A DNA stretch of 64,000 nt from Streptomyces niveus (GTDB taxonomy: Bacteria > Actinomycetota > Actinomycetes > Streptomycetales > Streptomycetaceae): contig NZ_CP018047.1 in NCBI RefSeq assembly GCF_002009175.1, positions 3,844,001-3,908,000 on the forward strand, written 5' to 3'. This document shows positions 29,998 to 52,970 of the stretch, piece by piece. Within the stretch, counting starts at the first letter, position 1. Every line of letters begins with the position of its first letter. A program made the translations under genes and the position numbers. A model generated the notes under the pieces. It searched no databases, had not been told where the DNA came from, and was given only the letters and a program-made list of their open reading frames with translations.

Positions 29998-30006
29998 TTA
30001 TCCACA
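29998..30006 (+). promoter_or_regulatory. DnaA box next to the paaA promoter
   Basis: TTATCCACA is an exact DnaA box. It is just upstream of the perfect -35 TTGACA at 30010 in the region between the DUF5819 gene and paaA. Confidence 0.5.
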
Positions 30007-51394: not shown

Positions 51395-51652
51395 GTGCCG
51401 AAGTCACGTATCCGCAAGAAGGCCGATTTCACGCCGCCCCCCGCGGCGAAGCAGTCGACCACCATAAAGCTGTCCAACCGGAGCTGGGTGGCGCCGGTCA
51501 TGCTCGCCCTGTTCCTCATCGGGCTGGCCTGGATCGTCGTCTTCTATGTGACCGAGGGCTCACTGCCGATCGACGCCTTCGGCAACTGGAACATCGTGGT
51601 CGGCTTCGGCTTCATCGCCGCCGGCTTCGGCGTCTCCACCCAGTGGAAGTAG
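51395..51652 (+). CDS. crgA: Cell division inhibitor CrgA
   Basis: 85 residues, the full CrgA family. Basic N-terminus ([16 protein letters not shown]), two membrane helices ([22 protein letters not shown] and [19 protein letters not shown]) and a short outer loop between. In Streptomyces CrgA coordinates FtsZ-ring formation before sporulation septation. GTG start with AGGAGAG upstream. Confidence 0.95.
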
Positions 51653-51686
51653 CGGCGGCCACCGGCGTCAAGCTCTGCCCAGAGAC

Positions 51687-51898
51687 TTATCCACAGCGCT
51701 GTCCACAGCCGGGGGAAAAGGTCTGACGATCTGTGGATAACTCCACGGCAGGTTGACGCCGGTGTGACTGGAACACCCGCTTCGGCCGATGTGATGAAGC
51801 GTCTCGCCCCTTGTCTCTGCTGGGAAAACCCGGATCAGCGACAAGGGGCACTGATGTTCCACACAGAGTGCACAAGATCCGACACACGCTGTGGACAA
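51687..51898. promoter_or_regulatory. Cluster of DnaA boxes between crgA and the rhomboid gene
   Basis: Exact boxes: TTATCCACA at 51687-51695 (+), TTATCCACA at 51732-51740 (-) and TTGTCCACA at 51890-51898 (-). A one-mismatch box, CTGTCCACA, is at 51699-51707 (+). They fill the 287-bp non-coding stretch 51653-51939. This is separate from oriC, which should lie between dnaA and dnaN beyond the right edge. It could titrate DnaA or be controlled by it. Confidence 0.7.
51806..51849. terminator. Long inverted repeat among the DnaA boxes
   Basis: GCCCCTTGTC (51806-51815) pairs perfectly with GACAAGGGGC (51840-51849). The 24-base loop holds an inner GGG-AAAA-CCC. It sits between convergent crgA and rhomboid genes, so a terminator is the simplest reading; a structured RNA is the alternative. 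Confidence 0.5.
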
Positions 51899-51939
51899 CT
51901 GTGCGCTTCGAGGGACTTCGACGGTCACTTCGACAGCTC

Positions 51940-52833
51940 TCAGTTGAGCTGTCCGGTCCTGATCACGACGACCGCCACCGTCGCCAGCAGTACCACCGCG
52001 CACGTGCCCCACTGGACCAGCGCCCGGCGCTCACGCGGCGCGTGCACGAGGCCCACGGCGATCGCGGTGCCCGCGACCAGACCGCCGACATGCGCCTCCC
52101 AGGCGATGCCGGACCAGGTGAACGTGAAGAGCAGGTTCAGCGCCAGCAGCGCGAAGACCGGCCTCATGTCGTAGTTCATCCGGCGCATCAGTACGGCCGT
52201 GGCGCCCAGGAGACCGAAGATCGCGCCCGACGCACCGAGCGACGGCTGGTTCGGCGCGGCGATCAGATAGGTCAGGGCGCTGCCGGCCAGCCCGGAGATC
52301 AGATACAGCGCCAGAAAGCGCACCCGCCCGAGCGCCGCCTCCAGCGGACCGCCGAGCCACCACAGCCCCAGCATGTTGAACGCGATGTGCCACACGGCCT
52401 GGTGCAGGAACATCGACGTGAACAGGCGGTACCACTGCCCGTCGGCGACGCCGACGATCTGACCGATGTCCGTGTTGAAGGCGAGCCCGATGAGATCCAG
52501 CTCACCGACGACGCGCTGTTCACCGGCGAGTACCGCGACGAAGACCGCGAGATTCAGCCCCAGCAGGATCTTCGTGATCAGACGGGGATCGGCGGCGATG
52601 GTGCCGCCGGCGATCGTGCGCGGCCGGGTGGCGGTCGGGGACATGCCCGAGCCGTTCGCCTCCCGTACGCAGTTGGGGCACTGGAATCCGACGGAGGCGC
52701 TGATCATGCAGTCCGTGCAGATGGGCCGCTCGCAGCGGGTGCAGCGGATGCCGGTCTCACGGTCCGGGTGCCGGTAACAGTGGGGTGTCGTGTCGGCTGC
52801 GGGCCGGTCCGGGCCCCCGGGCTGCTGGTCCAT
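51940..52833 (-). CDS. Rhomboid-family intramembrane serine protease with N-terminal zinc-finger
   Basis: 297 residues. The first ~60 residues form a B-box-like zinc finger (CYRHPDRETGIRCTRCERPICTDCMISASVGFQCPNC). Six or more membrane helices follow. Catalytic Ser is in GASGAIFGLLG and catalytic His in WEAHVGGLVAG; WHIAFNMLGLWWLG matches the rhomboid HxxxN region. It cleaves membrane proteins within the bilayer; substrates unknown. ATG at 52833 with GAGGGG upstream. It converges with crgA. Confidence 0.92.
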   Translation of the reverse strand: MDQQPGGPDRPAADTTPHCYRHPDRETGIRCTRCERPICTDCMISASVGFQCPNCVREANGSGMSPTATRPRTIAGGTIAADPRLITKILLGLNLAVFVAVLAGEQRVVGELDLIGLAFNTDIGQIVGVADGQWYRLFTSMFLHQAVWHIAFNMLGLWWLGGPLEAALGRVRFLALYLISGLAGSALTYLIAAPNQPSLGASGAIFGLLGATAVLMRRMNYDMRPVFALLALNLLFTFTWSGIAWEAHVGGLVAGTAIAVGLVHAPRERRALVQWGTCAVVLLATVAVVVIRTGQLN

Positions 52834-52970
52834 CGGTCCCCTCGGTGCTCGTTGCGGCGGGAGGAGCACAGCGCACCGCCCTCCCCGTCCGGTATGTAAC
52901 CACTACGGACGGGCAGGGCGGGATGGTTCCCCGAACGGGAATCCGAGACGTCGTGACGTGTCCGAGGAAC

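Follow-up and report, generated by a model that had tools for sequence, protein, structure and literature searches.

Three DnaA-box clusters located outside the replication origin (oriC) of Streptomyces coelicolor, reportedly named H69, H24, and D78, are said to have been described by Smulczyk-Krawczyszyn et al. 2006 (J Bacteriol 188:6184). Clusters close to oriC are cited as repressing untimely initiation in both S. coelicolor and Bacillus subtilis (the latter from Okumura et al. 2012), in PMC5742627 and PMC4585315. In Escherichia coli, the level of active DnaA is lowered by the non-coding DnaA-box cluster datA, which requires IHF, while the DARS sites require two head-to-head boxes (I and II) and a box III adjoining II, according to PMC10380432. 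The present study focuses on a 287-bp intergenic gap (51653-51939) in a 64,000-nucleotide (nt) stretch of Streptomyces niveus DNA (contig NZ_CP018047.1, positions 3,844,001 to 3,908,000; hereafter, the window), which separates the crgA gene, whose stop codon ends at 51652, from a convergent rhomboid protease gene, whose stop begins at 51940. The Streptomycetaceae sampled share a conserved array of DnaA boxes behind crgA, and most of the other actinobacterial families sampled also have boxes there, which recur at certain spacings and are often accompanied by a palindrome. On balance, the gap appears to be an oriC-proximal DnaA-binding control site, which would titrate DnaA in the manner of datA. 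As the cluster recurs in most of the actinobacteria sampled, the boxes behind crgA probably represent an old replication-control site, rather than a local accident.

A preliminary description of this DNA, made from the letters alone, reported three exact DnaA boxes and one near box on both strands of the gap, together with a 10-bp inverted repeat, and placed this cluster outside oriC, beside crgA. All these components were found (Table 1), and oriC itself, with 13 one-mismatch boxes (genome positions 3916889-3917453), lies between dnaN and dnaA, approximately 21 kb from the gap. A hairpin separates boxes B1-B3, on the side of the crgA stop, from B4, on that of the rhomboid stop. When the gap was shuffled by dinucleotides, neither three or more exact boxes (0/20,000) nor four or more boxes with at most one mismatch (0/20,000) were ever obtained. 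The 7.99-Mb genome contains 53 exact TTRTCCACA sites, against 10 matches to the pattern read backward, and three exact boxes fall inside 300 bp in only two places, that is, in the crgA gap (212 bp) and at 4003478-4003776 (299 bp). Sixteen of the 53 exact boxes are found within 110 kb of oriC, and the probability of three lying so close together at this local density is 0.0013. Several strong boxes are thus grouped outside oriC at a level above chance, as is understood by a DnaA-box cluster.

Other boxes were also observed in this genome. Two exact and two one-mismatch boxes are present immediately upstream of dnaB (3953336-3953424), after rplI and a transporter gene, and this group may be the counterpart of H24. 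The boxes at 4003478-4003776 lie between a class II tRNA synthetase gene (read as serS) and a prephenate dehydratase gene, and a further pair is found beside kptA (L016:8450-8483); one of these two groups may correspond to D78. A lone exact box, TTATCCACA, is located at 29998-30006 of the window, between divergent frames and before a paaA-like gene (named from the reading of its frame).

The preliminary description had proposed the recurrence of the cluster in close relatives as a check, and its absence was not observed, given that at least two exact boxes are present in 197 of the 198 distinct Streptomycetaceae gaps, the exception (L105) having one. This set comprises 158 gaps from Streptomyces and 40 from 16 other genera, and was derived from 210 loci by the exclusion of five with no detected rhomboid gene and the removal of seven duplicate gaps. 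Within the genus (g1 was taken as Streptomyces), crgA was found in 120 of 121 genomes, 30 of which were used as loci, together with 60 of the other 90; 40 of the 51 loci from the other genera of the family were used, and the named genomes were the best 80 of at least 514 relatives. Three gaps (L096, L100, and L101) were seemingly shortened by parsing. Two exact boxes were found in none of the shuffled gaps of the family (0/3,960), and a core formed by an exact box on the plus strand and another on the minus strand is present in 195/198. B3 and B4 lie 147-150 nt apart in 110/156 Streptomyces gaps; 6/156 of the parsed gaps have no exact B4. The 17-mer GTTGACGCCGGTGTGAC, which is single-copy in the S. 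niveus genome at up to one mismatch, is found with at most four mismatches in 148/156 Streptomyces gaps, and with at most three in 14/39 gaps of the other genera. The conserved GGGGAAAA stretch that follows B1 and B2 is probably a decayed inverted box, and the conserved TGCACAAGATC that precedes B4 is perhaps a weak DnaA box.

Beyond the family, the class was sampled through 59 genomes, four of them from g1; two of the 55 others (L272 and L277) were dropped because of their short downstream sequence, leaving 53 loci from 28 families. In these loci, 36 exact and 81 one-mismatch boxes lie in the 300 bp that follow crgA, in comparison with 0 and 5 in the 300 bp that precede it, and the reversed motif gives 15 matches in the same downstream stretches. 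At least one box is present downstream in 48/53 loci vs. 5/53 upstream, and at least two in 41/53 vs. 0/53. Some locus carries a box in 26 of the 28 families; the other two, f3 and f21, had none in this first sample, and three f21 loci of a later sample do carry boxes. This later class sample, which shares many families and some genera with the first, was analysed with the same thresholds and definitions (crgA in 38 of 40 genomes, all 38 used), and yielded 40 exact and 59 one-mismatch boxes downstream vs. 1 and 0 upstream, with at least one box in 35/38 loci vs. 1/38 upstream, and at least two in 30 vs. 0. The Fisher p for at least one box downstream vs. upstream in the later sample (1e-16) is only indicative, since the loci are related by descent. 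In the phylum as a whole, crgA was matched in 38 of 80 genomes, seven of which belong to the window's own class, and the 23 new loci analysed from other classes have a box downstream of crgA in 17/23 cases and upstream in 0/23.

A rhomboid gene follows crgA within about 1-1.5 kb in 26/55 of the class loci, and was undetected in 29/55, where the boxes nevertheless persist behind crgA. The distance between crgA and dnaA is 12-131 kb in 20 genomes (those comparable on one contig among 22; in three, the distance runs over the contig ends, on the assumption of circularity), and it may be this closeness to oriC that selection keeps. Two adjacent CrgA-family matches were also observed in several genomes of one family, f22 (G194, G224, G235, G247, and G265; loci L337-L339 and L382-L384).

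The boxes of the class loci recur at preferred spacings, with tandem pairs at 12-13 nt (20 pairs) and head-to-head pairs at either 10-11 nt (21 pairs) or 22-24 nt (17 pairs). A triad, defined as a tandem spacing of 12-13 nt followed by a head-to-head spacing of 10-11 nt between boxes with up to two mismatches, is present downstream of crgA in 32/53 loci and upstream in 0/53, and the head-to-head pair in 40/53 vs. 0/53. The triad was less frequent in the later sample (15/38 vs. 0/38 upstream), where the head-to-head pair was found in 29/38 vs. 0/38, and it is rare in the other classes (2/23 loci), where the pair occurs in 8/23. A search of whole genomes recovered the triad in 73 of 148 class genomes, with 0 matches to the backward control in every result listed, and 44 of the 62 matches for which the place of crgA was available lie within 300 bp downstream of this gene, with 18 elsewhere. 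The strict triad pattern had no match in the S. niveus genome, and matched in only 2/13 genomes of its own genus. Of 296 class genomes, 29 contain the box-core pattern TTATCCACAN{18,40}TGTGGATAAC, namely 22 of the 31 from g1, six from f15, and one from f16. It is located between dnaA and dnaN in the f15 loci L256 and L259, beside a dnaN in L255, and between rplI and dnaB in the f16 locus (L232).

Many of the class loci also contain a palindrome close to TNACACNNGTGTNA, often right before the first box. At up to two mismatches, this palindrome is found downstream of crgA in 41/53 loci of the first class sample vs. 2/53 upstream, in 27/38 vs. 1/38 in the later sample, and in 10/23 vs. 2/23 in the other classes; as the consensus was derived from the first sample, only the latter two sets test it. 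In Streptomyces, the similar TGACGCCGGTGTGA sits on the opposite side of the box core from the palindrome of the class loci, and the palindrome is absent at this threshold from 30/40 gaps of the other Streptomycetaceae genera; the two may be one element. The exact palindrome pattern occurs in three other places in the S. niveus genome. BldD seems an unlikely binder, given that its consensus has a centre of 1 nt, vs. 2 nt in the palindrome. The MtrA site is a direct repeat, [GT]T[GA]ACC-N5-GT[GT]ACN, according to PMC5650626. TTGACG-CCGGT-GTGACT matches this repeat save for one mismatch, whereas the spacer is almost constant, the second half-site is variable, and other families keep a palindrome.

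Given that crgA and the rhomboid gene are convergent, the boxes are 3' of both genes and within no promoter. The guanine-cytosine (GC) content of the gap is 60.3%, vs. 70.4% for the window. The 10-bp inverted repeat (GCCCCTTGTC at 51806-51815 and GACAAGGGGC at 51840-51849) forms a hairpin that, lying between convergent genes, is probably a two-way terminator, although one that lacks a U tract. A hairpin with z < -2 is present in 96/145 Streptomyces gaps vs. 21/145 control zones, so that approximately one third of the Streptomyces gaps are without it. Neither a U-tract terminator nor a sigma-70 promoter was found when these were sought in the gap, and no known RNA family matched it at E <= 1. 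A 12-bp inverted repeat that encloses the box core (CACCGGCGTCAA at 51661-51672 and TTGACGCCGGTG at 51753-51764), seen in the fold, was considered as a conserved structure and rejected, since it is complete in only 1/165 gaps (that of S. niveus itself) and reaches 10 bp in one, and the remaining gaps resemble a control stretch in crgA.

Table 1. Position of the DnaA boxes behind crgA and of the associated features in the window.
Feature	Position	Strand	Description
crgA	51395..51652	+	85 amino acids; PF06781 CrgA, E 7e-30; left flank of the element
DnaA box B1	51687..51695	+	TTATCCACA, exact
DnaA box B2	51699..51707	+	CTGTCCACA, one mismatch; tandem to B1, 3 bp between
GGGGGAAAA stretch	51711..51719	-	probable inverted box, which reads TTTTCCCCA or TTATCCCCA in relatives; decayed to three mismatches here
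DnaA box B3	51732..51740	-	TTATCCACA, exact; head-to-head with B1/B2
Conserved 17-mer GTTGACGCCGGTGTGAC	51752..51768	+	includes TGACGCCGGTGTGA (51754-51767), which differs from TNACACNNGTGTNA by one mismatch
Hairpin	51806..51849	none	-31.5 kcal/mol, z -6.0
Conserved TGCACAAGATC before B4	51869..51879	none	consensus of 190 gaps
DnaA box B4	51890..51898	-	TTGTCCACA, exact
Rhomboid protease gene	51940..52869	-	PF01694, E 1.4e-37; convergent with crgA

The geometry of the triad raises the question of whether the element may resemble DARS, at which DnaA bound head-to-head, together with a third molecule on the tandem box, would lose ADP and recharge with ATP, promoting initiation. The cores of DARS1 and DARS2 in E. 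coli K-12 (+ / - at 14 nt / - at 12 nt) have the same order of three boxes as the triad downstream of crgA, tandem and then head-to-head, with the same tandem spacing of 12 nt, and are its nearest geometric match. This explanation is nevertheless unlikely, since the head-to-head boxes are 5 bp apart in E. coli (14 nt) and only 1-2 bp apart in the actinobacteria (10-11 nt), a difference that prevents the element from being classed as DARS, while the third box is decayed in the window, the strict triad is scarce in its genus, and few loci of the other classes have any triad. It is more improbable still that the site was left over from the replication origin or is an outlying portion of it, which would be consistent with the same convergent box core between dnaA and dnaN in f15 and with the reduced GC content of the gap, but is at odds with the complete oriC of the S. 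niveus genome, the distance of the element from dnaA, and the fact that no AT-rich unwinding tract was seen in the gap. The abundance of exact boxes around oriC could, in principle, reflect chance or hitch-hiking, with boxes being merely common in this region, but the stretch upstream of crgA, at an equal distance from oriC, has almost no boxes, and this, together with the sharp spacing and the (indicative) Fisher value, leaves the idea with next to no credibility.

The position of the boxes at the end of crgA is also compatible with a role in transcription, in which bound DnaA would block read-through between crgA and the rhomboid gene, or the transcription of crgA through B1-B3 would strip DnaA from its sites, tying crgA activity to free DnaA. 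Such a role would suit the placement of the boxes on either side of the hairpin, and the presence of the element behind crgA where no rhomboid gene was detected; the removal of IHF by transcription read-through has been reported at E. coli datA (PMC10950094). The crgA gene has no promoter boxes, however, while a strong hairpin already provides the terminator in two thirds of the Streptomyces gaps, and the nearness of crgA to dnaA is a simpler account of the link, which makes this explanation unlikely as well, and slightly less plausible than a resemblance to DARS, albeit not as remote as an origin remnant. The control of the crgA promoter by DnaA was also rejected, given that the 1.1 kb preceding crgA in the window are free of boxes with up to one mismatch, and that, in the relatives, the 300 bp before this gene have no exact box in 53 loci and one in 38. 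The preliminary description had suggested that the cluster might titrate DnaA or link replication initiation to septation, and while titration fits the strong boxes, conserved spacing, proximity to oriC, and deep conservation, the evidence does not support a link to septation by way of the expression of crgA. As the boxes are at the 3' end of crgA, the direct control of this gene is not supported, and the closeness of crgA to oriC could explain the association without any role for CrgA.

Under the preferred reading, as a DnaA-titrating control site, the closely spaced boxes would permit the cooperative loading of DnaA, and the site would be replicated soon after oriC fires, so that its copy number would double just when free DnaA must fall. 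The doubled site would then restrain re-initiation through titration, perhaps helped by a protein that binds the palindrome, and crgA would be chiefly a neighbouring landmark. The spacing between B1 and B2 (3 bp) is as in the paired boxes, 2-3 bp apart, preferred by E. coli DnaA (PMC11317965), and a conserved region near the E. coli oriC, dense in DnaA motifs, has been called favourable for titration in PMC12371093. In the datA region of E. coli, which is likewise a non-coding cluster of DnaA boxes, one tandem pair and one head-to-head pair are each spaced by 12 nt, and this head-to-head spacing differs from that of the actinobacterial element. A number of points weigh against titration as the function of the site. 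Passive titration alone needs neither a fixed spacing nor a place behind crgA, and no box was found downstream of crgA in 5/53 class loci (L265, L288, L290, L325, and L337), 3/38 loci of the later sample (L358, L361, and L382), and 6/23 loci of the other classes. Imperfect boxes also dominate outside the Streptomycetaceae (81/117 with a mismatch), and the strong S. coelicolor cluster, the deletion of which reportedly gave a phenotype, was D78 rather than H69.

The clusters of S. coelicolor resemble the crgA gap in their occurrence in Streptomyces, their proximity to oriC, and their grouped boxes. H69 is probably the crgA-rhomboid gap of S. coelicolor, and the cluster is probably already known at the level of Streptomyces. 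In this species, CrgA corresponds to SCO3854 and a rhomboid to SCO3855, so that an equivalent gap should exist there. The present analysis extends the element past Streptomyces, and adds its recurring spacing and the palindrome. In the accessible portions of the open-licence PMC literature, no text joining crgA to DnaA boxes was found, which lends weak support to its absence from print, and the same limited support applies to the phylum reach, the recurring spacing, and the palindrome, of which no description was found in these portions.

A broader and more tentative possibility, less likely than not, is that the 3' side of crgA is a phylum-wide actinobacterial DnaA-control site, with a set box arrangement and a palindrome near TNACACNNGTGTNA that would be bound by a widely conserved candidate protein, acting like IHF or Fis at datA and DARS. 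The actinobacterial phylum is not known to have either Hda or SeqA, and the prevention of the premature re-firing of the origin is poorly understood in these bacteria. If such a phylum-wide site does exist, it would represent a missing part of the actinobacterial DnaA cycle, and the ancestor of the titration cluster of Streptomyces. The analysis widens an observation from Streptomyces to the whole phylum. The non-coding site is short and conserved, its geometry recurs, and it includes a candidate site for a second protein, all of which provides a direct experimental handle.
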